Shown here: positions 9,391 to 25,372 of the stretch, one piece after another
How positions within the stretch are numbered: position 1 is the stretch's first letter
Layout: each line of letters starts with the position of its first letter
Source of the DNA: Magnetococcales bacterium
Lineage (GTDB): Bacteria > Pseudomonadota > Magnetococcia > Magnetococcales > Magnetaquicoccaceae
Direction of reading: 5' to 3'
Assembly: GCA_015228895.1 (NCBI GenBank)
Contig: JADGCR010000007.1
Coordinates: 1-25,372, forward strand
Length of the DNA stretch: 25,372 nt
The notes under the pieces: generated by a model
What the model was told of the DNA's origin: nothing
Seen by the model: the letters and a program-made list of their open reading frames with translations, nothing else
Database searches by the model: none
Made by a program: the position numbers and the translations under genes

Positions 9391-9476
9391 ACAAAGAGTG
9401 ACGCCACGCGGCCTTGATTGTGCTAGATTGTTCTCCGCACGGATACGGTCGAACCCCAACACCGAGGATACCCGCC

Positions 9477-11126
9477 ATGACACCCACCGACTCTTCCCTG
9501 GCTGCGGAGACCGGCAGCACCCGGACGACCCACCGGACCCGGGCCCAGGACGGCCGTTCGGTACGGGCGCTCATCCGGGAACTGGCCGCCCCGGTTCCCT
9601 GCGACGCGATGGTCACGCTCATCCGTCCTTTCGCCGTCATGTCGAAGCATGCCTACAGCACCCCGATCACCCCGCCCATCGGCCCGGCCTACCTGGCGGC
9701 GGTCATCGAGGCCGCGGGCTATCCCGTCGCGATGATCGACGGCATCGGCGAGGAGATCCAGCGCGTCGTGGCGAGCGGGTGCGGACGGTTCAACCTGCAG
9801 GGACTCAGCGCCGCAGCCATCATCGGGCGCATCCCCTCCGACACCCGCGTCATCGGGATCTCGATGATGTTCAGCCAGGAGTGGCTGGAGCATCGGCGCC
9901 TGATCCAGGGCATCCGGGACCGTTTCCCCGCGGCCAGGATCGTCGTCGGCGGGGAGCATGTCACGGCACTGACGGAATATGTGCTCCGGGATTGTCCGGC
10001 CATCGACTACGCGGTGATCGGCGAGGGTGAACTGACGTTTCTCGAACTGGTGCACGCCCTGTTCCACGACGCCCCGGTGGACGGCATCGGCGGCGTGGCC
10101 CACCTCACCCCCGCAGGCGTCATGAAAACAGGGGTCGGCAGCAGGATCGGCCTGATCGACGAGCTGCCCCGCCCCGCCTGGCACCTGTTGCAGGTGCGGA
10201 ACTATTTCATCGACAACTGGACCATGGGGATCGCGATGGGACGCAACATGCCCATCCTCGCCTCGCGGGGCTGCCCCTATCAATGCACTTTCTGCTCCAA
10301 TCCGGGCATGTGGTCCACCCGCTACAAACTGCGCGACGTTCAGGAGGTCATCGCCGAAATCCAGTGGTTGATCCAGGATTTCGGGGCCAACAGCATCGAC
10401 TTCTTCGACCTCACCGCCATCGTGCGCAAGGAGTGGATGCTCCGGTTCTGCGCCGCATTGAAGGCGAACGGTCTTTCCATCATCTGGCAACTGCCCTCCG
10501 GCACCCGTTGCGAAGCGTTGGACGAGGAGGTGTTGCGCGCCATTTTCGCGGCGAACTGCCGTTATCTGGTGTACGCCCCGGAGAGCGGCTCCGAACGCAC
10601 CCTGAAAAGGATCAAGAAGCGACTGAATCTGCGCACGACCCTCTCCAGCATACAGACCGCGCTCAGGGTGGGACATACGGTCAAGGTCAACTTCGTGATC
10701 GGCTTCCCGGATGACGAAACGCGGGATGTGCTGCGGACCCTCGGACTCATCCTGCGCCTGGCCTGGCTTGGGGTGCACGACTGCAACGTGGCCATCTTCA
10801 CCCCCTATCCCGGCTCCGAACTCTTCGACGAACTCAGGGAGGCCGGGGCGATTCCGGCGTTGGACGACGCCTATATCGCCACGTTGATCTGTCAGTTCGA
10901 TTTGACCGTCGCCCAATCCTTCTGCCGACACCTCTCCGGGCGCTCCCTGATGCTTTTCCGGTTGATGGGGCAACTCGGCTTCTACGCCCTCTCCTATCTC
11001 CGTCGCCCCTGGCGCCTGGTCAACCTGGTGCGGGGCGTCCTGCGTCCCGGCACCATCGCCACGAATCTGCTGGAGCAGAGGATCTTCGACCTGCTGGCCC
11101 GACGCCGTCTGCTCTCCAAGGGTTGA
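9477..11126 (+). CDS. Cobalamin-binding-type radical SAM protein (BchE-like architecture)
   Basis: A 549-residue protein. The ATG at 9477 is preceded by GAGG at a normal distance. The N-terminal half (about 45-200) looks like the Rossmann-type B12-binding domain of class B radical SAM enzymes: PPIGPAYLAAVIEAAGY (66-82), IGISMMF (about 126-132), ARIVVGGEHVTAL (153-165) and AVIGEGELTFLELV (179-192). The radical SAM domain carries SRGCPYQCTFC, with the cluster-binding cysteines 266, 270 and 273, then YAPESGSERTLKRIKK and VNFVIGFPDDE. Such enzymes perform methylations, cyclisations or rearrangements. The substrate cannot be assigned, and no DxHxxG cobalamin-ligand motif is visible. The C-terminal 110 residues are basic and hydrophobic. 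It lies 113 nt upstream of the MEMO-AMMECR1 gene on the same strand. It is not the PflA-like enzyme usually paired with that family. Confidence 0.88.
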   Translation: MTPTDSSLAAETGSTRTTHRTRAQDGRSVRALIRELAAPVPCDAMVTLIRPFAVMSKHAYSTPITPPIGPAYLAAVIEAAGYPVAMIDGIGEEIQRVVASGCGRFNLQGLSAAAIIGRIPSDTRVIGISMMFSQEWLEHRRLIQGIRDRFPAARIVVGGEHVTALTEYVLRDCPAIDYAVIGEGELTFLELVHALFHDAPVDGIGGVAHLTPAGVMKTGVGSRIGLIDELPRPAWHLLQVRNYFIDNWTMGIAMGRNMPILASRGCPYQCTFCSNPGMWSTRYKLRDVQEVIAEIQWLIQDFGANSIDFFDLTAIVRKEWMLRFCAALKANGLSIIWQLPSGTRCEALDEEVLRAIFAANCRYLVYAPESGSERTLKRIKKRLNLRTTLSSIQTALRVGHTVKVNFVIGFPDDETRDVLRTLGLILRLAWLGVHDCNVAIFTPYPGSELFDELREAGAIPALDDAYIATLICQFDLTVAQSFCRHLSGRSLMLFRLMGQLGFYALSYLRRPWRLVNLVRGVLRPGTIATNLLEQRIFDLLARRRLLSKG

Positions 11127-13371: not shown

Positions 13372-13396
13372 CAGGGGTTGAACGCGTTGCTAATAT
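13368..13396 (+). promoter_or_regulatory. Near-consensus sigma70 promoter of tRNA-Leu
   Basis: Perfect TTGACA (13368-13373), a 17-nt spacer and TAATAT (13391-13396) lie 17 nt before the tRNA 5' end. The bases after the -10 (GTCCCGC) form a GC-rich discriminator, as in stable-RNA promoters under stringent control. The -35 overlaps the stop codon of the YdjM-like gene. Confidence 0.88.
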
Positions 13397-13413
13397 GTCC
13401 CGCAGATGATCAA

Positions 13414-13500
13414 GCCCAGATGGCGGAACTGGTAGACGCGCTAGATTCAGGTTCTAGTGTCCGAAAGGACATGGGAGTTCGACTCTCCCTTTGGGCACCA
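13414..13500 (+). tRNA. tRNA-Leu (anticodon CAG)
   Basis: An 87-nt class II tRNA. The acceptor arm GCCCAGA pairs with the 3' TTTGGGC (first pair of the 3' arm a wobble), then discriminator A and encoded CCA. The D arm contains GGTAGACGC. The anticodon stem CTAGA/TCTAG holds the loop TTCAGGT, giving anticodon CAG, which reads CUG, a favoured Leu codon in this GC-rich DNA. A long variable arm (TGTCCGAAAGGACA) marks Leu/Ser class II, and the T arm is GGGAG-TTCGACT-CTCCC. A consensus promoter precedes it and a strong terminator follows. Confidence 0.97.
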
Positions 13501-13508
13501 AAAAATTC

Positions 13509-13544
13509 AAGGAGTTGGCCGGTTTCGGTCAACTCCTTTTTTTT
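13509..13544 (+). terminator. Rho-independent terminator after tRNA-Leu
   Basis: A 10-bp stem (13511-13520 with 13527-13536, one G-T pair) and a 6-nt loop, followed by eight T. It starts 9 nt after the tRNA CCA end and finishes 33 nt before the radical SAM start codon at 13578. Confidence 0.9.
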
Positions 13545-13577
13545 ATTGGTTTTTCTCCAACCGACACAGGTGGCGTC

Positions 13578-15695
13578 GTGAAGAAAATCGTTCTCGCATT
13601 TTGTTCCCTGGCAGACAAGTGGTTGCCCACGCTCGACAAGGAAAACGGCCACTACTCCCTGGGACTGGGCATGCTGGCGTCGGTGATGGAGGAGGCCGGC
13701 TACGATTGCCGGGTGCTCTTCATGCCGGAACAGACACAACCGGCCTGCCTGGAACGGTTGCGGGACACCCTCGCGACGGAACCGCCGGTGGTGCTGGGAT
13801 TCGGCATGATGTCCGACAACCGGGTGGCCACCTACCGGGCCATAGAAATGGTGCGACTCAGCCATCCCGACCTGCCGGTGGTGATCGGCGGCGTCCACGC
13901 CACGGTGATGTACCAACAACTGCTGACGCGATATCCCCACCTGATCGCGGTGCTGGGAGAAGGCGAGCGGACCCTCCCGGAACTGGTGGCGACCCTGGAG
14001 TCCGGCCAGGACCTGTCCGGGGTGACCGGCATCGCCTTTGTGCGTGACGGCACCGTGGTGACCACTCCGAACCGCCCCCTGATCGAGGATCTGGACGCGC
14101 TCCCTTTCGCCAAACACGCGCTCTTCTTCACCCCGGAGAGGACCGAGGCCCAGATCATCACCAGCCGGGGCTGTCCGTTTCGTTGCAGTTTCTGCGTCCT
14201 GGATGTCCTGTCGCAACGGCGGGTGCGGCATCGCAAGGCCTCCCGTGTCGTGGATGAAATCGAAACCATCCTGACCCGGTTTCCTCAAGTGACCACCTTC
14301 CAGATCCTGGACGATCAATTCTTCATGTTGAAACAGCATGTCCTGGATTTCTGCGCCGAGATCCAGCGCCGGGGGATACACAAAAGAGCCAGTTTCTTCT
14401 GTTCGGGACGGGTCAAGCCTCTGGACCGGGAGATGATCCTGGCGATGGAGATGGCGAATTTCGAGAACGTCATCCTGGGACTGGAGAGCGGCTCCAGAGA
14501 AATCCTGAAACGGTGCCACAAGAAAATCACCCCGGAGGACGTCCTGCGGGCGGTCAGCCTCTTTGCCGATTCCACCATCAACGTCGCGATCCTGCTGGTC
14601 ATCGGACTGCCGGGCGAAACGAGAGAGACCATCATGGAGACCGTGGAACTCTGTCAACAGCTCCAGAGACACTCCTATCACCATTACAGCCACAAGATTC
14701 AAACCGCCTTTGTCTATCCTGGCGCGGAACTGCACGACATCGCCAAGGCGGCGGGCATGATCCACGACGATTTCTGGTTGAGCGATCAAGACGTGCCCTA
14801 TTTCACCGTTGAGCACAGCATCCAGGAAATGCTTGAATATCGGGATGTTCTGTTGACCCATCTGTGCGCCGAGCGGATCTGCACTCCCGCGGGATTCGCG
14901 GCCCAGCGGCCCTTGCTGCACTCCCTGATCCACTGGGGATTCACCCAGCCCAACCTGGGGGGATTCCATTACCAGCTCCTGGTGCTCCATGTGGCGGAGC
15001 GGATGCTGGCCACGGGCGAACTGGTCATTCACGTTGACCCGAAACTGCTGTCGGAAGACGATCCCCGGTGCGGATTGACCCGGATCAGACGCACGCCGGG
15101 GACCGATCACCAGATCGAGATCGTTGCCGGGCAGCCCATGGAGCCCCCCCGTTTTCTGAACGCCCTGCTTCATTACGCCTATACGCAGAACATCCGCACC
15201 CTGACGGATCGGATCGACCGGGGGGTGGAGGCGTTCCTGGAGGAGCTGAGCCGCTCCCCCAATCCTTTGGGCCGCTTGATGGCGATTCCCAATCTGTCCA
15301 TCGTCCCCTTCATCCGGAATACCAGCGACGACCATTTCTGGGCGTTGCTCAAACAGGCCATCGAGTTCCATCAGGCCGGCCAGTTGACCCCGGCGGAGAT
15401 CATCTATCAGACGATTCTGGCAGCCCTGCCAAATCACCCGGACACCAATCACAATTATGGCGTTCTGATCATGCAGTGCAACCAGCCCGCCGCCAGTCTG
15501 CCTTTTTTCAAAACGGCCTGGCTCTCCGACCCCGTCATGGAGCAGTACTGTTCGAGCTATGTGGACGCCCTGATGCGCGACAACCAGCCGGACGAGGCGG
15601 TCCGGGTGGTGGCCCGGGCGCGTCAAAGGGGCGTGTCCGACACCCTGGTGGCGCATCTGGAACGGCTTCTGCAGATGGAACCGGGCGGCGACTGA
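13578..15695 (+). CDS. Cobalamin-binding-type radical SAM protein with C-terminal TPR module
   Basis: A 705-residue protein. I start it at the GTG 13578 (AGGTGG about 9 nt upstream; protein begins VKKIVLAFCS); any longer frame would run into the tRNA. Residues about 1-165 resemble a B12-binding domain: HYSLGLGMLASVMEEAGYD, VVLGFGMMS, LPVVIGGVHATVM and AVLGEGERTLPELV. The radical SAM domain follows, with ITSRGCPFRCSFC (Cys 199, 203, 206), VILGLESGSREILKR and ILLVIGLPGETRETI. After about residue 450 comes a helical linker. Residues 586-705 are a TPR-like module (HQAGQLTPAEIIYQTIL ... HPDTNHNYGVLIMQ ... SSYVDALMRDNQPDEAVRVV). The same module forms the N-terminus of the GT41 protein at 21402. The substrate is unknown; the TPR part suggests a protein partner. 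No DxHxxG motif is seen. It lies directly behind the tRNA terminator with no obvious promoter of its own. Confidence 0.88.
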   Translation: MKKIVLAFCSLADKWLPTLDKENGHYSLGLGMLASVMEEAGYDCRVLFMPEQTQPACLERLRDTLATEPPVVLGFGMMSDNRVATYRAIEMVRLSHPDLPVVIGGVHATVMYQQLLTRYPHLIAVLGEGERTLPELVATLESGQDLSGVTGIAFVRDGTVVTTPNRPLIEDLDALPFAKHALFFTPERTEAQIITSRGCPFRCSFCVLDVLSQRRVRHRKASRVVDEIETILTRFPQVTTFQILDDQFFMLKQHVLDFCAEIQRRGIHKRASFFCSGRVKPLDREMILAMEMANFENVILGLESGSREILKRCHKKITPEDVLRAVSLFADSTINVAILLVIGLPGETRETIMETVELCQQLQRHSYHHYSHKIQTAFVYPGAELHDIAKAAGMIHDDFWLSDQDVPYFTVEHSIQEMLEYRDVLLTHLCAERICTPAGFAAQRPLLHSLIHWGFTQPNLGGFHYQLLVLHVAERMLATGELVIHVDPKLLSEDDPRCGLTRIRRTPGTDHQIEIVAGQPMEPPRFLNALLHYAYTQNIRTLTDRIDRGVEAFLEELSRSPNPLGRLMAIPNLSIVPFIRNTSDDHFWALLKQAIEFHQAGQLTPAEIIYQTILAALPNHPDTNHNYGVLIMQCNQPAASLPFFKTAWLSDPVMEQYCSSYVDALMRDNQPDEAVRVVARARQRGVSDTLVAHLERLLQMEPGGD

Positions 15696-15702
15696 AAATG
15701 GG

Positions 15703-15731
15703 TTGGCTTTCACCCGGCGTTCTGTTACAAT
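15703..15731 (+). promoter_or_regulatory. Putative sigma70 promoter of the mamD-like gene
   Basis: TTGGCT (15703-15708; 4 of 6), a 17-nt spacer and TACAAT (15726-15731; 5 of 6) lie just after the stop codon of the radical SAM gene and about 55 nt before the mamD-like start. This gives that gene, and perhaps the downstream operon, an independent transcription start near 15738. Confidence 0.6.
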
Positions 15732-15785
15732 AGCGACATGCCGTAATCGACCTCCACGAACCAACAACACCATGAGGAAACGCGG

Positions 15786-16517
15786 ATGCCCGCCATCACC
15801 AAACAACTGATCGGACCAGAACAACTCTCCACCGTGACCGGCAAGAGTTTCACGCTGAAAAGTGTCGCCGGCAGCAAGGATTATCTGCTCACGCCCATTG
15901 CCTCCAAAGGGGGCGGCGGCGTTCTCCACCCCATTCTGCTCACCAATCCCGCAGTCGAGGGGTTGGCTCCGGCGGGAACGGCGGGCGCCAAGACGGCGGG
16001 CGCCAAGACCGCGGTCGCGGGCAAGGGCGCCGCGGCCAAAGTGGCCGCGACCAAAGGGATGCTCCCAACCCTGGTGGAAATCGAAGGGAGCGGAAAAATT
16101 CTGGGGACCGGCAAAAGCCTGACCCTGGGCGGACTGGAAATCAACGGCACCCTGCAAGCCGGTCAAGGAGGCAACACCATTCTGTTGCAGGGTGGACAGG
16201 CGACCCTCACCCAGGGGGCCATCAAGGCCAAGGCCGGAGCCGTGGCCGCCAAGGGGACCGTGGCGGGAACCGGGGGGGCGATCGCCAAGCCAGTGGCGGC
16301 GACCGTGGCGGGTACCGCCGCCAAGGGCGCGGTCAAAGGAACCGCGGTGGCCGGCACCATCTGGAATGGTGGCGGCCTGAGCCTGGGCCTGGGTATTGGC
16401 CTGGGGGCGTGGGGACCCGTGCTTCTGGTCGGGGTGCTGACGCTGGCCGGAATCGGCGCGTATCAGTACATGCAACAGAAAAAATCGGGCGGAGGGTTGG
16501 TGGAAGCCGCCGACTGA
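15786..16517 (+). CDS. mamD: MamD/Mms6-family magnetosome protein (LG-repeat)
   Basis: A 243-residue low-complexity protein. The ATG at 15786 follows GAGGAAA. The C-terminal part is diagnostic: GTIWNGGG then GLSLGLGIGLGAWGP (residues 197-211), running into a membrane helix ending QYMQQKKS. This Leu/Gly-repeat segment is shared by the magnetosome-membrane proteins Mms6, MamD (Mms7) and Mms5, which influence magnetite crystal size and shape. The length and long N-terminal region fit MamD better than the short Mms6. Residues 1-60 and 97-145 are Gly-rich and predicted beta-strand (for example VEIEGSGKILGTGKSLTLGG). Residues 61-92 and 146-190 are Ala/Lys/Gly repeats (AGAKTAGAKT). The very acidic tail of Mms6 is absent, with only VEAAD at the end. 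It has its own promoter and is followed by a perfect hairpin. Recognition is by motif only, and no other mam gene is visible here. Confidence 0.75.
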   Translation: MPAITKQLIGPEQLSTVTGKSFTLKSVAGSKDYLLTPIASKGGGGVLHPILLTNPAVEGLAPAGTAGAKTAGAKTAVAGKGAAAKVAATKGMLPTLVEIEGSGKILGTGKSLTLGGLEINGTLQAGQGGNTILLQGGQATLTQGAIKAKAGAVAAKGTVAGTGGAIAKPVAATVAGTAAKGAVKGTAVAGTIWNGGGLSLGLGIGLGAWGPVLLVGVLTLAGIGAYQYMQQKKSGGGLVEAAD

Positions 16518-16545
16518 GGCTTGGGATCCCACCGTTTCACAGACC

Positions 16546-16587
16546 AGCGACACGCGCTGGAGACCGCCGTCTCCAGCGCGTGTCGCT
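16546..16587. terminator. Perfect 19-bp inverted repeat between the mamD-like gene and the GT41 operon
   Basis: Arms 16546-16564 and 16569-16587 are exact reverse complements around a CGCC loop, giving an extremely stable GC-rich hairpin. There is no T-run after it on either strand, so it is not a classic intrinsic terminator. It could be a Rho-independent pause, an RNase-resistant mRNA 3' end for the mamD-like transcript, or a dispersed repeat. It lies 29 nt after one stop codon and 28 nt before the next start. Confidence 0.6.
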
Positions 16588-16615
16588 GTCATCCAGGTCA
16601 GCCGCGAGCCTAACC

Positions 16616-19255
16616 ATGCCTTCCCAGAAATCCACGCCAGCGACAGACAATCCGCCCTTTCAAACCTTGATCGCCCTCTACAACCAGGGAGAGTATCCGG
16701 AATTGGAACGGCAGGCCCGCGCGCTGACCCTGCGCTCTCCCGGCCATGGTTTCGTCTGGAAGGTGTTGAGCCTGGCGCTGCACGCGCAAGGTCGGCTGGA
16801 CGAGGCGGTGGAAGCCATGCGCCAGGCGCGGAAACGACTGCCCGAGGACGGGGAGATCCCCGCCAACCTGGGGGTCATGCTCCTGGAACAAAACGCCCTG
16901 ACGGAGGCGGAAGCCTGTTTTCGTCACGCCGTGTCCCTTCAGCCGGAACTGGCCACGGCCTGGCACAACCTGGGGATCACACTGCAGAAGCAGCAGCGTT
17001 TTCACGCGGCGGAACAGGCTCTCCGGCAAGCGTTGCGCAGCCAGCCCGGATATGCCAGGGCCAGCCTGAATCTGGGCATGCTGCTTGAATCCCGGAACCG
17101 CCTCCAGGAGGCAGAGGCGGCTTTCCGCCACGCCTTGGACCTCCAGCCCGGCCTGGCCGAGGCCAGTCACCGGTTGGGCATCCTGCTGGCCGGTCAGAAC
17201 CGTGGGCAGGAGGCCGAAACCGCGTATCGCCACGCCCTGACCTGCGACCCGAAGCATGCCGACGCCCACAACAATCTGGGGATTCTCCTGGCGGAGCGAA
17301 AAGCCCACGCCGCCGCCGCGAACTGTTTCCGGCAGGCACTGGAGATCAACCCGGAACTGGCCGACGCCCACTACAATCTGGGCAACACGCTCCGCGTGCA
17401 GGGTCGCCTGGACGAGGCGGCCTCCTGCTATCGGCGCGCGCTGGCCTGCAAGCCCGATCTGGCCGCCGCCCATTGCAATCTGGGCCTCCTGAATTACCAG
17501 CGGGGCCACCTGGAGGCCGCCGAACTCTGTTACCGCCAGGGTCTGTCGTCTCATCCCAACGACTGGGAGAATCTCTACAACCTGGGCATCACCCTGCACG
17601 AGCAGGGCCGCCACGTCGAGGCCGAAACCAGTTTCCGGATGACCCTGCGACAGCGGCCTGATCATCCCGAAGCCCACAACAACCTGGGAAACGCCCTGTA
17701 CGAACAATTTCGTCTGGAGGAGGCGGAAGCCTGTTATCGGCAGGCGTTGGCTTGCCAACCGGATTACGCCGCCGCCCACAACAATCTGGGGAACACCCTG
17801 AACGACCTGCGCCGCACCGACGAAGCCGCCGAAAGTTTCCGTCGGGCGCTGGTCCACGATCCCGGGCTTGGAAACGCCCTGGCGTTGCTGTGTCACTGTC
17901 TCCAGACTCAATGTCAATGGCAGACCCTGCCCGCGGACACGGAAGCGGTGCGCGCCGCCTTGTCCGATGGCGTGGTGATGCCGATTTTCCCGTTACTCTC
18001 CCTCCCCTTCGATGACGGACACCTGCTGCGGGAAGCCAGCGAAAGGTACGTCGCCGCGCAGGTCGGCCCGCTCCTGACCACCCCGCCCCTGGTGGACCCG
18101 CGCCACCATCCACGGAGAGAACGTCTGCGGATCGGGTATCTGTCGGCGGACTTTCGCAACCATCCCATCACGCAACTGTACGCGGGTCTGCTCGAAACCC
18201 ACGACAGAGCCAGCCATATCGTCCATGGGTATGCCATCGGGCCGGACACCAACGACGCCGGGCGACAACGCATCGTCAAGGCCTGTGATGTGTTTCGTGA
18301 TCTGGCCCCACTCTCCGATCTGGAAGGGGCGCGACGCATCGCCGACGACCAGATCGACATTCTGGTCGATTTCACCGGCTACATGCAATTTTTCCGACCC
18401 GGAATCCTCGCCCGCCGGCCCGCGCCGCTGATCGTCAACTTCACCTATCCGGGCACCATGGGCCATCCCCGCATGGCGGACTATAAAATCAGCGACCCGA
18501 TCGTCACCCCACCCTCCCTGGCCGGACATTTCACCGAAACCCTGGCCCTGCTGCCCCACTGTTTCCACATCCATGGCCGCAACCGCTTCCATGACCCGCG
18601 CCTGACACGCGATGCCGCCGGATTGCCGGAGCATGGGTTTGTTTTTTGCAGTTTCAATCAATATTATAAATTCAGCGGGGAGAGTTTCGCGCTGTGGTGC
18701 CGCCTGCTCCACGAGGTCGAGGAGAGCGTGTTGTGGCTGCCTCGTGCCGACGCCGCCGCCATGAACAGACTGCGCCAGGAGGCCGCGGGACACGGGATCG
18801 AGCCAGACCGCGTCCTGTTCGCCCCCAGGACCGGGACCCTGGCGCAACACATGGCCCGTCTCTCCCTGGCGGACCTGGCGCTGGACACCTTCCCCTACAC
18901 CTCCCAGACCACGGGGGGCGACGCCCTGTCGAGTGGCGTCCCCCTGATCACCAGAATGGGCAACTCCTTCGTCAGTCGGGTGGCCGCCAGTCTTTTGCAC
19001 GCGGCGGGCTTGCCGGAACTGGTCACCGGGTCGTGGCAGGACTATTATCGACTGGCACTGGAACTGGCCCACGACCCGGTCCGTCTGCGAGCCATCCGGG
19101 AACGTTTGCGAGCCAACCTCCCCACCCACCCCCTGTTCGATACCGAAGGATTCGCCAGGGACATGGAACGCCTGTATGAGCGCATGTGGCGGGATCACGG
19201 CGCCAACAGAAAAGAGAGGATCATCCTGAGCGCCCGAAAACAGGAGTCGCCATGA
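16616..19255 (+). CDS. TPR-GT41 O-GlcNAc-transferase-like (SPINDLY) protein 1
   Basis: An 879-residue protein. The ATG at 16616 has only a weak ribosome binding site. Residues about 25-430 form about twelve 34-residue TPRs with the canonical NLG...L...G...EA pattern (for example AHNNLGILLAERKAHAAA, AHYNLGNTLRVQGRLDEA). Residues about 497-865 are a GT41 catalytic region: RLRIGYLSADFRNHPI (H516, matching the catalytic-site His of human OGT), ILVDFTGYM, RRPAPLIVNFTYPGTMGH, FCSFNQYYKF (K685, the UDP-contacting Lys in OGT), VLWLPRADAAAMNRLRQEA, LADLALDTFPYTSQTT, GDALSSGVPLITRMG and SFVSRVAASLLHAAGLPELV. Family members transfer GlcNAc or other sugars to Ser/Thr (or Asn/Cys) of proteins. The target is unknown. 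It is the first gene of the coupled operon, and its TGA overlaps the ATG of the next ORF. A paralogue lies at 21402. Confidence 0.93.
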   Translation: MPSQKSTPATDNPPFQTLIALYNQGEYPELERQARALTLRSPGHGFVWKVLSLALHAQGRLDEAVEAMRQARKRLPEDGEIPANLGVMLLEQNALTEAEACFRHAVSLQPELATAWHNLGITLQKQQRFHAAEQALRQALRSQPGYARASLNLGMLLESRNRLQEAEAAFRHALDLQPGLAEASHRLGILLAGQNRGQEAETAYRHALTCDPKHADAHNNLGILLAERKAHAAAANCFRQALEINPELADAHYNLGNTLRVQGRLDEAASCYRRALACKPDLAAAHCNLGLLNYQRGHLEAAELCYRQGLSSHPNDWENLYNLGITLHEQGRHVEAETSFRMTLRQRPDHPEAHNNLGNALYEQFRLEEAEACYRQALACQPDYAAAHNNLGNTLNDLRRTDEAAESFRRALVHDPGLGNALALLCHCLQTQCQWQTLPADTEAVRAALSDGVVMPIFPLLSLPFDDGHLLREASERYVAAQVGPLLTTPPLVDPRHHPRRERLRIGYLSADFRNHPITQLYAGLLETHDRASHIVHGYAIGPDTNDAGRQRIVKACDVFRDLAPLSDLEGARRIADDQIDILVDFTGYMQFFRPGILARRPAPLIVNFTYPGTMGHPRMADYKISDPIVTPPSLAGHFTETLALLPHCFHIHGRNRFHDPRLTRDAAGLPEHGFVFCSFNQYYKFSGESFALWCRLLHEVEESVLWLPRADAAAMNRLRQEAAGHGIEPDRVLFAPRTGTLAQHMARLSLADLALDTFPYTSQTTGGDALSSGVPLITRMGNSFVSRVAASLLHAAGLPELVTGSWQDYYRLALELAHDPVRLRAIRERLRANLPTHPLFDTEGFARDMERLYERMWRDHGANRKERIILSARKQESP
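18089..18150 (+). repeat. 62-bp identical tract shared by the two GT41 genes (copy 1)
   Basis: Identical base for base to 23076-23137. It covers the linker and the first strand of the catalytic domain (VDPRHHPRRERLRIGYLSA). Flanking sequence in both genes differs at many silent positions, so this looks like recent gene conversion rather than selection on protein alone. Confidence 0.85.
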
Positions 19256-19380
19256 CCACACCCCCATCCGGACAGAACCGCCTGGGACGGGAGGGGATCG
19301 AACCCCTCCCGGAAACGGACCTCAAGCCTCCGGGCCGCAAGCGGACCCGCTGCTCCTGTTCGCCGGAAGCCTGTCCATGA
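19252..19380 (+). CDS. 42-residue Cys-containing small protein, translationally coupled
   Basis: A short ORF I do not recognise. Support comes from context: its ATG (19252) overlaps the TGA of the GT41 gene (ATGA), AGGAG lies 7 nt upstream, and its own TGA overlaps the ATG of the E1 alpha gene (ATGA). About 70% of its codons end in G or C, as expected for a real gene here. The product is basic and Pro-rich, starting MTTPPSGQNRLGREG and ending GRKRTRCSCSPEACP, with three cysteines in C-x-C-x4-C. There is no signal peptide or membrane segment. Possibilities (inference only): a small metal- or redox-active partner of the dehydrogenase, a substrate peptide for the glycosyltransferases or radical SAM protein, or merely a coupling leader that keeps ribosomes running into E1 alpha. 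Confidence 0.55.
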   Translation: MTTPPSGQNRLGREGIEPLPETDLKPPGRKRTRCSCSPEACP

Positions 19381-20333
19381 CCGTGACCGATCCCGGCCTG
19401 CATGAACGACTCTTTCGCGCCATCTACCGCATCCGCCGGGTGGAGGAGGAGGTTGCCCGCATCTATCCCTCCGACCAGATCAAGAGTCCGATTCATCTCT
19501 CCATTGGTCAGGAGGCGCCTTCGGTGGCCGTGTGCGACCTGCTGACCCGCGAGGATGTGGTGTTCGGAAACTATCGCGGCCACGCCCTCTATCTGGCCCG
19601 CGGAGGGGATCTCCAGGCCATGATGGCCGAGTTGTATGGCAAGGTGGATGGCTGCGCGCGGGGCAAGGGGGGCTCCATGCACCTGATCGATCCGCGGGTG
19701 AACATGATGGGCACCTCCGCCATTGTCGCCACCCAGTTGCCCCATGCGGTTGGCTACGCCTGGGCCATGGCGCAACAGAAAAGAAATGGGATCGTGGCCT
19801 GCTTTTTCGGTGACGGCGCAACCGAGGAGGGGGCGTTTCACGAAAGCCTCAATTTTGCCCTGCTCAAGAAACTCCCCATCCTGTTTGTCTGTGAAAACAA
19901 CGGATGCGCCATTCTCTCCCCGATCGGGAACCGCTCCACCCAAATCAACATCACCCGGAGAATCAGCGGCACGGGCATCTCCTCCGCCAGGGTGGAGAGT
20001 GGGAATGTCCTCGAGATCCGGAGCGCGGCGCAAACCGCCCTCCACCAGGTCCGCCAAAGAGAGGGGGGACCCTTTTTCCTGGAAATTCTGACGTGTCGTC
20101 TCCGGGGACACGTGGGTCCGGAAGAGGACTGGGATCTGGGCTACCGGAGCCATGAGGAGGTCCGCTCCTTCCTGGACAACGATCCGGTCCAACAGATGGA
20201 GCGCACAATCGAGCCGGCCCGCAGACAAGAGATTGCCGACGCCGTTGAGCAAGAGATTCAACAGGCCATTCGGTACGCCCGGGAAAGCCCCTTCCCCGCG
20301 CCGGAGGAGTTGTACCAACATGTCTTCAAATAA
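19377..20333 (+). CDS. TPP-dependent dehydrogenase E1 component, alpha subunit
   Basis: A 318-residue alpha subunit of a heterotetrameric 2-oxo acid (pyruvate-, branched-chain- or acetoin-type) dehydrogenase E1. Expected elements appear in order: HLSIGQEAPSVAVCDLL (40-56), NYRGHALYLARGGDLQAMMAELYGK (phosphate-contact region, 65-89), GKGGSMHL (97-103) and the thiamine-diphosphate motif from GDGATEEGAFHESLNFAL (145-162) to CENN (172-175). The stretch after CENN reads GCAILSP rather than the common YAMSTP, a hint that the substrate may differ from pyruvate. The ATG at 19377 overlaps the stop of the small ORF, and the 3' end overlaps E1 beta by 14 nt. No E2 or E3 gene is in the window. Lone E1 alpha/beta pairs inside glycosylation or polysaccharide loci are known and need not form a classical complex. 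Confidence 0.9.
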   Translation: MTVTDPGLHERLFRAIYRIRRVEEEVARIYPSDQIKSPIHLSIGQEAPSVAVCDLLTREDVVFGNYRGHALYLARGGDLQAMMAELYGKVDGCARGKGGSMHLIDPRVNMMGTSAIVATQLPHAVGYAWAMAQQKRNGIVACFFGDGATEEGAFHESLNFALLKKLPILFVCENNGCAILSPIGNRSTQINITRRISGTGISSARVESGNVLEIRSAAQTALHQVRQREGGPFFLEILTCRLRGHVGPEEDWDLGYRSHEEVRSFLDNDPVQQMERTIEPARRQEIADAVEQEIQQAIRYARESPFPAPEELYQHVFK

Positions 20334-21387
20334 CGCACCGGCACGGGAGATGACCTTCTCCCAGGCCATCCGGGAAGCCCTGGAACAGGAAATGGCGCGC
20401 GACCCCGCCGTCTTCGTGCTGGGGCAGGGGGTGGATGACGTCAAGGGCTTCTACGGCTCCACGCTGGACCTGCACAAACGGTTCGGCAAGGAGCGCTGCT
20501 TCGACACCCCTTTGTCCGAGGATGCCATCACCGGCATCTGCATCGGAGCCGCTCTGGCCGGGATGCGTCCCGTCAACACCCATCAGCGCATGGATTTCAT
20601 GCTCCTGTGCCTGAACCAACTGGTCAATGTCGCCGCCAAAAGCCGTTACATGTATGCGGGGGCCGCGTCGATACCCATGGTGGTCCGGGGCGTGGTCGGC
20701 AGAAGCTGGGGACAGGGACCGCAGCACACCCAATCCTTTCATTCCTACTTCATGCATGTGCCGGGCTTCAAGATCTTCGCGCCGGCGACTCCCCACGCGG
20801 CCAAAGGGTGCATGATCAGCGCGATTCGGGACGACAACCCTGTTCTGATCATGGAAAACCGGATGCTGCACGGCACCCGGGGAGAGGTCCCGGAATCCCC
20901 CTATGGGATCCCCTTCGGACAAGCCAACGTGATGACCTCCGGCGGCGACCTGACCCTCGTGGCCATCAGCCATATGGTGCTGGAGAGCCTGCAGGCGGCG
21001 CAACGGCTGGGAAGGGAAAAGGGGATCGCCGTGGAGGTGATCGATCCGGTCTCCCTGGCCCCACTGGACATGGAGACGATTGCGCGTTCCGTGGAAAAAA
21101 CCGGGCGGCTGCTGGTGGTGGACAATGGCTGGATCAACTGCGGAGCCAGCGCGGAAATCGTGGCGCAAATGGCGGAACGATGGCGGGGGGACAGAGGGGT
21201 TCGGGTGCGGCGTCTGGGTTTCGCCCCGGTACCCTGCCCCACCACCAAACCGCTGGAGAACCTGTTCTATCCCAACGCCGCCACCATTGCCGCCGCCGCG
21301 TATGCCCTGATCACCGGGAGGGATGGGGAGTGGGTGCCGGACCCCACCCCTTCCAGCGAGGTGGAAGGTTTTCGCGGTCCTTTCTGA
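20320..21387 (+). CDS. TPP-dependent dehydrogenase E1 component, beta subunit
   Basis: A 355-residue beta subunit that pairs with the preceding alpha subunit. The ATG at 20320 lies inside the 3' end of E1 alpha (14-nt overlap) behind a GGAGGAG. Transketolase-like pyrimidine-binding domain: MTFSQAIREALEQEMARDP, VLGQGV, DTPLSEDAITGICIGAALAGMRPV (family members usually have a Glu at this TPP-activating position) and GPQHTQSFHSYFMHVPGFKIFAPATP. C-terminal transketolase domain: TLVAISHMVLESLQAAQ, IDPVSLAPLDMETIARSVEKTGR and VDNGWINCGASAEIVAQ. Length and domain order are normal. The GT41 paralogue follows after 14 nt, so the operon continues. The substrate is not determined; the sequence does not separate pyruvate, acetoin or branched-chain types. 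Confidence 0.9.
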   Translation: MSSNNAPAREMTFSQAIREALEQEMARDPAVFVLGQGVDDVKGFYGSTLDLHKRFGKERCFDTPLSEDAITGICIGAALAGMRPVNTHQRMDFMLLCLNQLVNVAAKSRYMYAGAASIPMVVRGVVGRSWGQGPQHTQSFHSYFMHVPGFKIFAPATPHAAKGCMISAIRDDNPVLIMENRMLHGTRGEVPESPYGIPFGQANVMTSGGDLTLVAISHMVLESLQAAQRLGREKGIAVEVIDPVSLAPLDMETIARSVEKTGRLLVVDNGWINCGASAEIVAQMAERWRGDRGVRVRRLGFAPVPCPTTKPLENLFYPNAATIAAAAYALITGRDGEWVPDPTPSSEVEGFRGPF

Positions 21388-21401
21388 GGTCATTGCGCCC
21401 G

Positions 21402-24233
21402 ATGACACCCCTCTCTCCCCCGCAAACCCCGGAACCGGTCCTGCAACGGGCCGTCACCCTGCATCAGTCCGGTCGGTGGCAGGAGGCGGAACACCTTTAC
21501 CGGGAAATTCTGCAACGCCATCCCCACCACCCCGACGCCAACCACAACCTGGGACTCCTGGCGTTGCAGCTCGGCGCGCCAACGGCCGCCCTGCCCTTTC
21601 TCAAGACGGCGCTCGAAGCGGACCCCGGACAGGCGCAATACTGGTTGAGCTATGTGGATGGTCTGCGCCACGACGGTCAACACGATGCGGCGCGTCAGGT
21701 TCTGGCCCGGGGGATCAGCCACGGCGCGTTGCGGGACACCCCGAATGACGACGCCCTGATCGATTTGTACCGGCAGAGGCGTTATCCCGAATTGGAGCAA
21801 CAGGCCCGCGTCATGACCGCGACGGCTCCGGAACACGGTTTCGGCTGGAAGGTGTTGGCTTTGGCGATCCAGCAGCAAGGACGGGTGGACGAAGCCCTGA
21901 CCGTGATGCAAAAGGCGTTGGAACTGCTGCCTGACGACGCGGAAATCCATGGCAACCTGGGTGTGATGTGGATGGAACTGGGCCGCCTTGTCGAGGCGGA
22001 GGTCTGCTATCGCCAGGCGCTGGCGTTGCGCGGGGATCATGCCGAGGCTTGCAACAATCTGGGCATGCTGCTCCACAGGCAGAATCGTCCCGACGAGGCG
22101 GAAGAGGCGTTCGGGCAGGCGCTGCGCATCAAGCCGGACTACATCAACGCCCACTACAACCTGGCCCTGCTGCTGCAGGAACAGAAACATTGGAGCAAAG
22201 CGGAAACGGCTTTCCGTAAACTTTTACACCTGAAACCGGACCATTTCGAGGCGTTCAACCATCTGGGCATGCTGTTGGCGGAGCAACACCGCCTTCTGGA
22301 AGCGGAGAACGCCTACCGGCAAGCCCTGATGCTCAATCCACAATGCGCCGAGGCATACTACAATCTTGGCAACACCCTGCGGACACAAAACCGTCTGATC
22401 GAGGCCGAAACCAGCTATTTTCAGGCATTGTCCAGAAAGCCCGATCTTGTGGCGGCCCATTGCAATCTGGGCATCCTGTATTACCGGCAAGGCCATCCCG
22501 ACAGAGCCGCAAACCAGCTCCACAAAGGCCTGGCCCACCTGCCCGACGACGTGGAGAGTCTCTACAACCTCGGCATCATCCAGCATGAACAGGGCCTGTT
22601 TGACGCGGCCGAAACCTCCTGTCGTCGCGCCTTGAAAAGTCGGCCGGATCACGCCGCGCTCTGGAACAACCTGGGCAACACCCTCATTGAACTGAATCGC
22701 CCGGACGAAGCGGAACCGTGTTTTCGTCAGGCTCTGGCATGCAGGCCGGATTACGCCGCCGCCCATTTCAACCTTGGGAATCTGCTCTATGATCTGGTGC
22801 GTCTGACCGAAGCCGGGACCAGCTTTCGCCGGGCCGCGGAACTCGATCCCGATCTGGGGAGCGCTCTGGTACTGCTCTGCCACTGTGCCCAGCATCTGTG
22901 CGACTGGCGAACCTTGCGCGCAGACACCGAGGCGGTGCGCCGGGCATTGACGCGCAAAGTGGCCACACCGATGTTTCCCCTGCTTTCACTGCCCCTGGAG
23001 GATGGCCTGCTGTTGCGACACGCGGGGGCCTCCTCCATCCAGCAACAGATCGCCCCGCTGTTGCGGAAACCCCCTCTGGTGGACCCGCGCCACCATCCAC
23101 GGAGAGAACGTCTGCGGATCGGGTATCTGTCGGCGGATTTCCGCAATCACCCCGTCACGCAACTCTTGGCCGCCGTCATCGAAACCCATGACAGCAGGCG
23201 GTTCCAGGTCCACTGTTTCGCCTATGGACCGGACACCCGGGATGAGGGACGTCAACGCATCATCCGGGCATGCGATCGCTTTCACGACCTGAAAGACCTG
23301 TCCGACCACGACAGCGCTGCGCTGATCGCCCGCGAGGGCATCGACATCCTGTTGGACCTTTCAGGCAACATGCAACACCATCGCATCAAGATCACCGCCT
23401 GCCGTCCCGCGCCGCTCCTGGTCAACTTCAGCTTTCCCGGCTCCATGGGCCATGCCAGGGTGGCCGATTACAAGATCAGCGATACCATCGCCTCTCCCCC
23501 CCACATGGCGGAACAGTTCAGCGAGACTTTGGCGCTGATGCCCCACAGTCAGCAACCCAACGACCGCAACCAGGCCATCGCCACCTCCCCGTCGCGACAG
23601 GAGGCCGGGTTGCCTGACGAGGGATTGGTTTTTTGCAGTTTCAATCAGAACTACAAGTTCAATCCGGATGGTTTCACGGTCTGGTGCCGACTCCTGGACC
23701 AGGTTCCCGGCAGTGTTCTCTGGCTGCCCGCGTCCAACCCCATCGCCATGCAGAACCTGCGTCAGGAGGCGCTCCAGCGGGGGGTCGCGGCCAACCGGCT
23801 GGTTTTCGCCCCCAGAATGCCCACCCTGCCGGAACACCTGGGCAGACTGGCGCTGGCGGATCTGGCGTTGGACACCTTTCCGTACAACTCCCAAACCACG
23901 GGGAGTGATGCTTTGTGGAGCGGTGTGCCCATGGTGACCCGGATGGGCACAACCTTCGTCAGCCGCATCGCCGCGGGCATGCTGCACGCGGTGGGTCTTC
24001 CGGAACTGGTCACGCGTTCGTGGGAGGAGTATTACGAACTGGCGCTGGATCTGGCGTTGAATCCGGACCGTTTGCAGGCCATCCGGCAACGTCTCCGGTC
24101 CAACCGCCTGACCCACCCCCTGTTCGATACCGAACGGTTTGCGCGGGATCTGGAACGGCTGTTGGAACGCATGTGGCGGGATCACGCCGCCGGCAAAAGA
24201 GAGATGATCATCCTGGAAGACGCTCCGGAATGA
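21402..24233 (+). CDS. TPR-GT41 O-GlcNAc-transferase-like (SPINDLY) protein 2, with extra N-terminal module
   Basis: A 943-residue paralogue of the protein at 16616. The ATG at 21402 is the first start after the E1 beta stop; GAGG lies about 15 nt upstream. Residues 1-118 are an extra TPR-like module (HQSGRWQEAEHLYREIL ... HPDANHNLGLLAL ... LSYVDGLRHDGQHDAARQVL) matching the C-terminus of the radical SAM protein at 13578. From about residue 120 it aligns with the start of protein 1, with about eleven further TPRs. The GT41 catalytic region runs from about 562 to 925: RLRIGYLSADFRNHPV (H583), RPAPLLVNFSFPGSMGH, FCSFNQNYKF (K752), LADLALDTFPYNSQTT, SDALWSGVPMVTRMG and FVSRIAAGMLHAVGLPELV. Where protein 1 has DFTGYM, this copy has DLSGNM, a change near the acceptor/donor site that may alter activity. 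It is the last gene of the operon, convergent with the cNMP gene. Confidence 0.93.
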   Translation: MTPLSPPQTPEPVLQRAVTLHQSGRWQEAEHLYREILQRHPHHPDANHNLGLLALQLGAPTAALPFLKTALEADPGQAQYWLSYVDGLRHDGQHDAARQVLARGISHGALRDTPNDDALIDLYRQRRYPELEQQARVMTATAPEHGFGWKVLALAIQQQGRVDEALTVMQKALELLPDDAEIHGNLGVMWMELGRLVEAEVCYRQALALRGDHAEACNNLGMLLHRQNRPDEAEEAFGQALRIKPDYINAHYNLALLLQEQKHWSKAETAFRKLLHLKPDHFEAFNHLGMLLAEQHRLLEAENAYRQALMLNPQCAEAYYNLGNTLRTQNRLIEAETSYFQALSRKPDLVAAHCNLGILYYRQGHPDRAANQLHKGLAHLPDDVESLYNLGIIQHEQGLFDAAETSCRRALKSRPDHAALWNNLGNTLIELNRPDEAEPCFRQALACRPDYAAAHFNLGNLLYDLVRLTEAGTSFRRAAELDPDLGSALVLLCHCAQHLCDWRTLRADTEAVRRALTRKVATPMFPLLSLPLEDGLLLRHAGASSIQQQIAPLLRKPPLVDPRHHPRRERLRIGYLSADFRNHPVTQLLAAVIETHDSRRFQVHCFAYGPDTRDEGRQRIIRACDRFHDLKDLSDHDSAALIAREGIDILLDLSGNMQHHRIKITACRPAPLLVNFSFPGSMGHARVADYKISDTIASPPHMAEQFSETLALMPHSQQPNDRNQAIATSPSRQEAGLPDEGLVFCSFNQNYKFNPDGFTVWCRLLDQVPGSVLWLPASNPIAMQNLRQEALQRGVAANRLVFAPRMPTLPEHLGRLALADLALDTFPYNSQTTGSDALWSGVPMVTRMGTTFVSRIAAGMLHAVGLPELVTRSWEEYYELALDLALNPDRLQAIRQRLRSNRLTHPLFDTERFARDLERLLERMWRDHAAGKREMIILEDAPE
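23076..23137 (+). repeat. 62-bp identical tract shared by the two GT41 genes (copy 2)
   Basis: Identical to 18089-18150; see that entry. Shorter exact matches between the two genes also occur near the 3' ends (around 19126-19150 and 24112-24136). Confidence 0.85.
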
Positions 24234-24245
24234 ATCCCCGCCATT

Positions 24246-24270
24246 CCCGCGCCCCGTCAAGCCGCGCGGG
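24246..24270. terminator. Possible hairpin between convergent genes
   Basis: CCCGCGC (24246-24252) and GCGCGGG (24264-24270) can pair around an 11-nt loop in the 23-nt gap between the convergent stop codons (24233 and 24257) and just into the cNMP gene. There is no T-run, so a role in termination is only possible. Confidence 0.3.
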
Positions 24271-24691
24271 CGCTGCGTCGTCCGATCAGACCGGCAAAAG
24301 CCTTGGTGACCCGCCAGTCGTTCGTCATGAGCATCTGAAAGGTTTCGATATCCAGGGTCAACACGATGACATGGGTTTCCGCCACGATATCCGCTCCCCT
24401 CGGTTTGCTGGAAACCAGGGACATTTCGCCAAGCAGAGCGCCCGGCTCGGCGGGGAAGTGGAGATGTTTGCCCTCCCCGACCGGCACATCCACCCTGGCC
24501 TTGCCCTCGTAGAGGATAAACAGCGTCGTCCCGGTAGAACCGAACTTGACGATATACTGGCCCCGTTCAAAGGTTTCGATGCCGATCAAAGGGGCGATCA
24601 GGGTGGCCAGATCCGGCCTGGGCAATTCACAGAATCCTTCCACCTTGCTCAAAAACTCCACAATCTGCGGCAACGAGAAATCGGTCTGCAT
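24257..24691 (-). CDS. Second stand-alone cyclic-nucleotide-binding domain protein
   Basis: A 144-residue protein made of one CAP_ED/cNMP-binding beta-roll. The ATG at 24691 is preceded by GGGGAGA at 9 nt. Core strands: IETFERGQYIVKFGSTGTTLFILYEGKARV (about 38-67), then the phosphate-binding cassette GALLGEMSLVSSKPRGADIV (84-103). The Gly-Glu is present, but the usual Arg-Thr/Ser-Ala reads Arg-Gly-Ala, so nucleotide selectivity may be altered or binding weakened. There is no helix-turn-helix or effector domain. It is convergent with the GT41 gene and divergent from the Sel1 gene. It differs clearly from the protein at 2880 and is not a recent duplicate. Confidence 0.85.
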   Translation of the reverse strand: MQTDFSLPQIVEFLSKVEGFCELPRPDLATLIAPLIGIETFERGQYIVKFGSTGTTLFILYEGKARVDVPVGEGKHLHFPAEPGALLGEMSLVSSKPRGADIVAETHVIVLTLDIETFQMLMTNDWRVTKAFAGLIGRRSARAA

Positions 24692-24813
24692 GGCGCTGGT
24701 CTCCCCGGCAAAGGCATGACGGAATCGAAAGGTTTGTTTTGGACCAACACTACACCAAAAAACGCTCTCCCGTCCACCTTGTTGGAAATTCAGACCATGG
24801 GATCATTCTTGAA

Positions 24814-24842
24814 TTGAAATCAGTCTCGCAAAAGGATAAATT
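24814..24842 (+). promoter_or_regulatory. Putative promoter and overlapping dyad upstream of the Sel1 gene
   Basis: TTGAAA (24814-24819; 5 of 6), a 17-nt spacer and TAAATT (24837-24842; 4 of 6) lie about 85 nt before the ATG at 24926. An inverted repeat, AAGGAT/ATCCTT (24832-24837 and 24844-24849), straddles the -10 and could be an operator. Confidence 0.45.
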
Positions 24843-24925
24843 GATCCTTGAGATGAAACCGGCAATCACAGAAGACGCGCGGCTTTCCCAAGACAGAAAA
24901 ACCGCTCCCTTTGGAGGCAAGACCC

Positions 24926-25372
24926 ATGACCGTCAACAGCTTGTGGCATCCAGTTCTCTGGCCCCTGATGTTCGCTCTCCTCGCCAGCGCGCACCTCCCG
25001 ACCGTGGCCATGGCCGACGCAAACCAGCCGGAGGCCGCCAGCGGGCGCACCCCGGAATCCCTCTTCGAGCAAACCCGGCAGGCCGCCGACCAGGGGGACG
25101 CGGAGGCCCGGATGCTCCTTGGCCACCTGTACCTGAAGGGCAGCGGTGTGGCCAGAGACCCGGCCCAGGCGCTCAAATGGTACGCCCTGGCCGCCGCGCA
25201 AGGCCATTCCGAGGCCGCCCGCCATCGGGATCAACTGCTCCCCGCTTTCACCCGGCACTCCACCGTCACCATCTCCAGATACGAACCCAAGACCAGCGCA
25301 CCCCAACCGGAAGCCGCGCCAGCGCCCCCTCCGGACACCCGCCCCACCCCCCTGGAGATCCTCCCCCTGTCC
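24926..25372 (+). CDS. Secreted Sel1-repeat (TPR-like) protein, 3' end cut by window edge
   Basis: The first 149 residues of a gene that continues beyond the window. The ATG at 24926 follows GGAGG at 9 nt. A hydrophobic signal sequence (about 1-29, LWPLMFALLASAHLPTVAMA) has a likely cut after AMA, so the protein is periplasmic or exported. At about residues 56-100 there is a Sel1-like repeat: QGDAEARMLLGHLYLKG, then GVARDPAQALKWYALAAAQGHSEA. It is followed by a Pro/Ala-rich stretch (from about 120) as the frame leaves the window. Sel1 proteins are usually protein-interaction scaffolds in signalling or envelope processes; the partner is not apparent here. Confidence 0.82.
   Translation, partial: MTVNSLWHPVLWPLMFALLASAHLPTVAMADANQPEAASGRTPESLFEQTRQAADQGDAEARMLLGHLYLKGSGVARDPAQALKWYALAAAQGHSEAARHRDQLLPAFTRHSTVTISRYEPKTSAPQPEAAPAPPPDTRPTPLEILPLS

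Follow-up and report, generated by a model that had tools for sequence, protein, structure and literature searches.

The gene at positions 15786–16517 (+ strand) of the window, i.e. the whole analyzed stretch of 25,372 nt, probably encodes a MamD-like accessory membrane protein of the magnetosome that is in working order and is encoded outside the main magnetosome gene cluster. We assign a probability of about 70% to this reading. Judged by its sequence, the protein belongs to the MamD-like family of magnetotactic cocci and is neither MamD proper nor Mms6; the family is known, and the gene adds a new member to it at an unusual location. The open reading frame of 243 codons is intact, starts with ATG, and contains a single stop codon at its end.

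The product consists of modules, linkers, and a tail. Module 1 comprises residues 1–62 and includes a diverged MamD repeat (LxGKxFTV...LxP; residues 11–46, 15816–15923), which was recognized by profile alignment and shuffling controls. It is followed by linker 1 (residues 63–92, 15972–16061), module 2 (residues 93–146, 16062–16223), and linker 2 (residues 147–189, 16224–16352). Both linkers were delimited by composition and are rich in Ala, Lys, Gly, and Thr; combined, they contain 11 K/R and not a single D/E. Module 2 was delimited in the family alignment by the conserved residues LVEIEGxGK...GL(E)xxG, and it appears to be specific to the MamD-like family, with no detectable match to the MamD repeats. 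The tail (residues 190–230, 16353–16475) was defined by NCBIfam matches, alignment, profiles, and hydropathy. It begins with the GTIW box (residues 190–193), followed by a Leu/Gly repeat and the GAWGP motif, residues 199–211 being SLGLGIGLGAWGP, and ends with a membrane helix, the remainder of which occupies residues 212–230. Among the 19-residue stretches, hydrophobicity is highest in the one beginning at residue 200 (mean Kyte-Doolittle value 1.94), and 13 residues follow the helix. The original prediction had named these tail elements and the Ala/Lys/Gly-rich low-complexity segments, and all of them were found. An AlphaFold model built with 11 sequences was structurally uninformative (mean pLDDT 37.4).

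Homology searches connected the product to three magnetosome proteins, chiefly via its tail. The NCBIfam models for MamD (NF040916), Mms6 (NF040917), and MamG yielded 54.7 bits (E 9e-15), 39.4 bits (E 6.8e-10), and 25.1 bits (E 1.5e-5), respectively, which is below the curated cut-offs of 100, 200, and 100 bits. The MamD model had no match in any of 14 unrelated control genomes, and thus the match to the low-complexity tail is not trivial. A Pfam search with the product returned nothing over cut-off; PF28196 is a precomputed Pfam number on all 31 proteins of the protein search. The tail profile matched the MamD tail profile with a probability of 99.9% (E 1.7e-32). For module 1, hhalign found a MamD repeat with a probability of 79% and a score of 34.6, with both compared profiles (MamD-like and MamD) being thin (Neff about 2.5), and weaker matches were found at three further repeats. 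The scores of 100 column shuffles of module 1 had a mean of 11.6 and a maximum of 19.6. Module 2 did not match the MamD profile. Taken together, a MamD tail and at least one MamD repeat are present while module 2 is unmatched, which indicates that the protein is related to MamD yet belongs to a family of its own.

The comparison with the two best-matching proteins is in congruence with this view. MamD (Mms7) has the same LG tail, the membrane helix, and one repeat that is recognizable in the product. However, tandem repeats fill most of the N-terminal part of MamD, and the repeat motif occurs at four places (by eye at two in the short MamD P0013), whereas only the one in module 1 is recognizable in the product. 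Mms6 likewise has a Leu/Gly repeat and a membrane helix, but the N-terminus of the product is much longer. In addition, the available portion of PMC11332177 describes an acidic magnetite-interacting C-terminus for Mms6, which the product lacks, as its last 13 residues include 2 acidic and 2 basic ones. The identification as MamD proper or Mms6 proper was rejected, as both models stayed below cut-off. The gene had been predicted to be of the MamD/Mms6 type: the homology of the tail to MamD and Mms6 was borne out and extends to MamG, whereas the gene is MamD-like and represents neither of the two. The HMM search that had been proposed as a check returned magnetosome proteins as the best matches, i.e. 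MamD, Mms6, and MamG, all of them below cut-off.

Besides the window protein itself, the protein search recovered ten relatives of full length (244–282 aa) and twenty further proteins, which include some of the size of MamD (about 320–400 aa) and some of the size of Mms6 (about 140–150 aa). Four additional full-length relatives (P0032–P0035) were found in a profile search. Five of the 14 full-length relatives carry a taxon name, and all five are from Magnetococcales or Magnetococcus; proteins that share only the tail were also found by the profile search in Magnetospira, other Alphaproteobacteria, and Gammaproteobacteria. The nearest relative is a protein of Magnetococcus sp. YQC-5 (64% identity over 96%), which according to the accessible text of PMC9840458 was collected magnetically and contains double magnetosome chains. 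Alignment from end to end, including modules 1 and 2, was obtained with P0002 (64% over 96%), and eight of the other nine relatives aligned with 38–44% over 91–97%; the local alignment of P0009 was confined to the tail. In a tree of 26 family members the window protein lies inside the family and pairs with the YQC-5 protein (support 100/99). A contig scan with a single sequence produced 203 pattern matches and not one confirmed relative, and an alignment-based scan found 9. A tblastn search of the product against 72,556 plasmid and 50,697 phage records gave no match, and an origin from a plasmid or phage was therefore rejected.

The name of the family has been published. In Magnetofaba australis IT-1 a MamD-like gene (locus 2822) ends the mamCXZ cluster, and its product has a stretch of 23% in common with MamD at 73% identity; as far as the available text of this 2014 paper goes, it was related only to the MC-1 protein (PMC3934378). 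Two of the genomes in our set have comparable loci. The order MamZ-MamX-MamC-relative-...-MamA-like-MamD in G047 matches that of IT-1, and the order in G045 is MamD-MamX-MamZ-relative; where scanned, MamX, MamZ, and MamD of G045 as well as MamC of G047 were over the NCBIfam cut-offs. From the gene order we infer that both genomes are IT-1/MC-1-like. The window protein aligned over its length with both relatives at 34–35% identity. It differs from the IT-1/MC-1 proteins in that it sits on another branch, together with YQC-5, and its gene stands alone, whereas theirs is inside the magnetosome cluster.

The distribution of the family was analyzed in 48 Magnetococcales genomes. The family profile had matches in 46 of them, i.e. 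in all but G024 and G039. In 18 genomes a full-length relative was recovered, either as a single piece or as two pieces (G001-G006, G009-G013, G017-G019, G021, G045-G047). In all 18 cases a tblastn search with 17 references revealed a magnetosome-type gene at a distance of at most 2.1 kb. The distance was 15–412 bp in 16 genomes, 1337 bp in G047, and 2099 bp in G046. The neighbors are of the MamF/MmsF-like, MamD, MamC, MamX/MamZ, small Mms-like, TPR MamA-like, and CDF transporter types, and the sequenced neighborhoods of the family other than the window are magnetosome loci. In nine genomes (G001-G006, G009, G010, G021) a MamF/MmsF-like gene lies 63–272 bp from the relative. The MamF/MmsF label is our presumption, based on similarity and general knowledge, with no NCBIfam match; among these neighbors, only the G045 protein matched Pfam DUF4870, with 24.7 bits versus 25. 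In G011, G012, and G013 a CDF transporter gene is the sole magnetosome-type neighbor, and the G011 transporter resembles MamB with a score under the cut-off (276 of 350 bits). In these three genomes and in G021 the relative is not on the MamB contig, which suggests that the family already tends toward satellite locations; several contigs with relatives are short, e.g. 3.0 kb in G010.

MamB exceeded the cut-off in 44 of the 48 genomes. Of the 18 genomes that contain a full-length relative, 16 had it, the exceptions being the drafts G009 and G010. The source organism is therefore likely to be a magnetotactic coccus, and the original prediction had already taken it to be probably magnetotactic; the Magnetococcales affiliation of the relatives and the magnetosome chains of YQC-5 point in the same direction. 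In the seven closest genomes (G034, G035, G037, G038, G040, G041, G044) the sole LG-tail gene is on the MamB contig, about 14–16 kb from mamB. G040, which is of the closest lineage, has a short true MamD instead (P0013, 190.7 bits).

Such a neighbor is lacking in the window. While all 18 relatives have a magnetosome-type gene within 2.1 kb, tblastn with the 17 references (E≤1e-8) detected no magnetosome gene in the 15,785 bp upstream and the 8,855 bp downstream of the window gene. A comparison of 18 reference proteins, one of which was the window protein, with the window ORFs of at least 40 aa also gave no other magnetosome gene. The weak matches that were set aside are those between the TPR repeats of two GT41 genes and MamA-like proteins, and a 40-residue match to MamD (E 2e-4) by a 63-aa overlapping ORF inside a GT41 gene. 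The NCBIfam search of 10 neighboring ORFs returned one magnetosome name, MamA with 156 bits (cut-off 200), which corresponded to the TPR repeats encoded by one of the GT41 genes and scored below a generic TPR match. The PADLOC matches in the window were limited to generic ones for radical SAM and cyclic-nucleotide-binding proteins. The claim that the window contains no other mam or mms gene thus agrees with all three magnetosome gene searches, the window being the whole known contig, which ends at 25372 with more mam genes possible past this end. The original prediction had further proposed an isolated copy or the edge of a magnetosome island. An isolated copy fits best, whereas an edge finds no support in the visible DNA: up to a tRNA-Leu gene, the left half of the window consists of ordinary chromosomal DNA that is conserved as a block, and in the closest genomes the LG-tail gene has its place near mamB, so that the edge of the main cluster was rejected.

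The conserved block extends from 3.4 to 13.4 kb and is syntenic with Magnetococcales genomes. The genes for a histidine kinase, a permease, a solute-binding protein, and Memo/AMMECR1 (about 3.4–12.6 kb) are arranged in the same way in G034 and G040, with identities of 88 and 86% for the permease and 80 and 82% for the solute-binding protein. The part from the permease to YdjM is also syntenic in G035, G037, G038, and G041 and, more distantly, in G007 and G018. Within this block, a B12-binding/radical SAM gene (9414–11126) is located between the genes for the solute-binding protein and Memo/AMMECR1; in six close relatives these two genes are 120–300 bp apart without it, which indicates an insertion in the lineage of the window. 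The block ends with a tRNA-Leu gene (CAG, 13414–13500, + strand), which was found at the same place in all six close relatives examined (G034, G035, G037, G038, G040, G041) but not in the compared stretches of G007 and G018, which are more distant. To the right of the tRNA, seven large ORFs of the window were examined, and none had a match in the stretches of the six relatives (2.2–10.2 kb). The content at this site is common to G034 and G040, another content is found in G037 and G038 (partly in G041), and G035 has neither. It differs between lineages, and the tRNA gene is therefore the boundary of a variable region. We do not call this region an integrative island, because no integrase was among the gene families matched in the window, no copy of the tRNA 3′ end of at least 12 nt was present in the window, and the far end lies beyond it.

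Inspection of the flanking sequences indicated that the gene might be a transcription unit of its own. A promoter-like motif (TTGGCT-17-TACAAT, 15703–15731, + strand) matches 9 of 12 consensus positions and lies about 54–55 bp before the start codon. It is a weak signal, as 2 such sites occur in 3.5 kb versus 0.8 ± 1.0 in shuffled sequences. A perfect inverted repeat of 20 bp with a loop of 4 nt (16545–16588, + strand) starts 27 nt after the stop codon and is the only one of its kind within 13372–25372 at the settings used. The intergenic RNA was predicted to fold with −57.4 kcal/mol, compared to −31.0 ± 3.4 for shuffled sequences (z −7.7). The hairpin is probably the transcript end or an mRNA-stabilizing element; it is not in the list of the terminator scan, since the scan needs a T run and the hairpin has none. 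No further copy of its arm was found in the window, and none of 75 loci contained the core of the hairpin.

A location outside the magnetosome island has a precedent in AMB-1. In the accessible parts of PMC2818848, a mamD-like gene of the magnetotaxis islet (MIS) is one of seven scattered mam-like genes in about 22 kb, and the islet with this gene is also mentioned in PMC9512821. By analogy, the window gene could belong to a satellite islet with its other mam genes past the point where the contig stops on the right. The window indeed does not reach the far boundary of the variable region, and the relatives of G011, G012, G013, and G021 are off the MamB contig with a single magnetosome-type partner. 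Nevertheless, we consider an islet unlikely, because the 8.9 kb downstream are occupied by non-magnetosomal genes, namely two GT41 genes, those for pyruvate dehydrogenase E1, and one for a cyclic-nucleotide-binding protein. The AMB-1 islet, as described there, has seven mam-like genes and transposases, in contrast to one mam-like gene and no noticed transposase in the window. The isolated position could also mean that a duplicated MamD-like gene was stranded outside the cluster and is now a disused or silent relict, and in the seven closest genomes a single LG-tail gene, located in the cluster, is sufficient. This appears rather improbable for a gene that has an intact reading frame, has kept the module and tail residues conserved in the family, and is bracketed by a promoter-like site and a hairpin of its own. 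Its codon-position GC is ordinary as well: the third-position value of 0.77 resembles those of 11 neighbors (0.75–0.84), and a foreign composition was thereby ruled out.

As the 18 relatives have magnetosome neighbors and the window gene has none, its use may have changed. The product might now be a Gly-rich membrane protein without a role in the magnetosome, e.g. a substrate of the adjacent radical SAM or GT41 enzymes. The gene has the same direction as the flanking B12/radical SAM-TPR and TPR-GT41 genes, and a linker rich in Thr, Lys, and Ala would be in line with this idea. However, a GT41 neighbor was found in none of the 18 loci of the relatives, a radical SAM gene was found near a relative only in G013 (about 8.4 kb away and with a weak match), and the window gene has its own putative signals, so that such a use seems very improbable. 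Hardly any weight is given to an artefact of binning or assembly, in which a magnetosome contig was joined to an unrelated one. The source appears to be a draft metagenome contig, but there is neither a gap nor a step in composition at the gene, which is internal to the contig and has no cluster genes alongside.

For a working MamD-like accessory protein, the following mechanism can be envisaged. The gene would be expressed from its own transcription unit in the variable region by the tRNA-Leu gene. The soluble N-terminal part would comprise the MamD-type repeat, the family-specific module, and the positively charged Ala/Lys/Gly linkers, while the Leu/Gly zipper and the C-terminal membrane helix would anchor the protein in the magnetosome membrane. 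By analogy to MamD and its kin, MamF-like (Tic20-like) helpers may bring the protein into this membrane at the onset of mineralization, where it might restrain or tune the growth of membrane and magnetite until it is cut by MamE. Because the gene is outside the main cluster, the protein would need helpers whose genes are located at other sites of the genome, which would presumably contain a complete cluster. In the available text of PMC11628618, MamF-like proteins are required for the targeting of proteins that have a Gly-rich C-terminal membrane helix after an Ala-rich domain (MamJ, MamD, Mms5), and MamD is strongly depleted from magnetosomes when the MamF-like proteins are missing. The window protein has this architecture. 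However, MamG and Mms6 have similar tails and do not need MamF-like proteins according to the same source, and thus the likeness of the tail does not prove the route, and confidence in the targeting is moderate. MamD enters magnetosomes under mineralizing conditions, and its cleavage by MamE lets the membranes grow, as described in the accessible part of PMC11332177. Its role seems to differ between species, from promoting crystal size to restraining membrane growth (available parts of PMC11628618 and PMC11332177).

The annotation of magnetosome genes looks mostly inside the cluster, and if single crystal-tuning genes are located elsewhere, cluster-based surveys undercount them. Where related cocci differ in the shape of their magnetosomes, the difference might then map to such loose genes. 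It is conceivable, though speculative, that crystal-tuning magnetosome proteins are exchangeable accessories, and that the lone MamD-like unit of promoter, gene, and hairpin in the tRNA-Leu variable region exemplifies this. Such a unit would plug into a magnetosome system encoded elsewhere, and lineages could alter the size or shape of their magnetosomes by swapping single genes. To our knowledge, the MamD-like family is almost unstudied, and with their two MamD-like modules plus the shared tail, its members provide a reduced MamD for mapping the parts that bind magnetite, are cut by MamE, and are recognized by MamF-like helpers. The occurrence of scattered mms6-group and mamCDFG-group genes outside clusters is known in general terms (PMC9840458, as far as its accessible text goes). 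In the available text of the literature on MamD-like proteins, magnetosome islands, and tRNA, no description of a lone MamD-like gene beside a tRNA-Leu gene was found.

Several observations were made in passing. In G021 a pair of MamD-like and MamF-like genes (L029, 10052–11295) shares its contig with parA/parB-like genes and is off the MamB contig, which makes it another example of a gene in a satellite position. In G011 (L023, 4890–9027), genes that by eye look like ZnuA/ZnuB-type metal uptake genes follow those for the MamD-like protein and a CDF transporter of the MamB/MamV-like type. In G018 a gene for a cyclic-nucleotide-binding protein (L027, 4572–4988) follows the MamD-like gene at a distance of about 190 bp; its product is 39% identical to that of window 24257–24691, which is 7.7 kb away from the window gene, and this may be chance. 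The B12/radical SAM protein encoded at 13578–15695 of the window has a relative in G025 (58%) and a C-terminal TPR-like part that is 46% identical over 97 residues to one GT41 gene product. The two TPR-GT41 (O-GlcNAc-transferase-like) genes (16616–19255 and 21402–24233) are about 56% identical and flank a pair of genes for pyruvate dehydrogenase-type E1 alpha and beta subunits (19377–21387). The best NCBIfam match of E1 alpha has 278 bits (cut-off 394), and the closest E1 genes in the order are those of G030 (68%), which is not one of the genomes that are closest by the left block.
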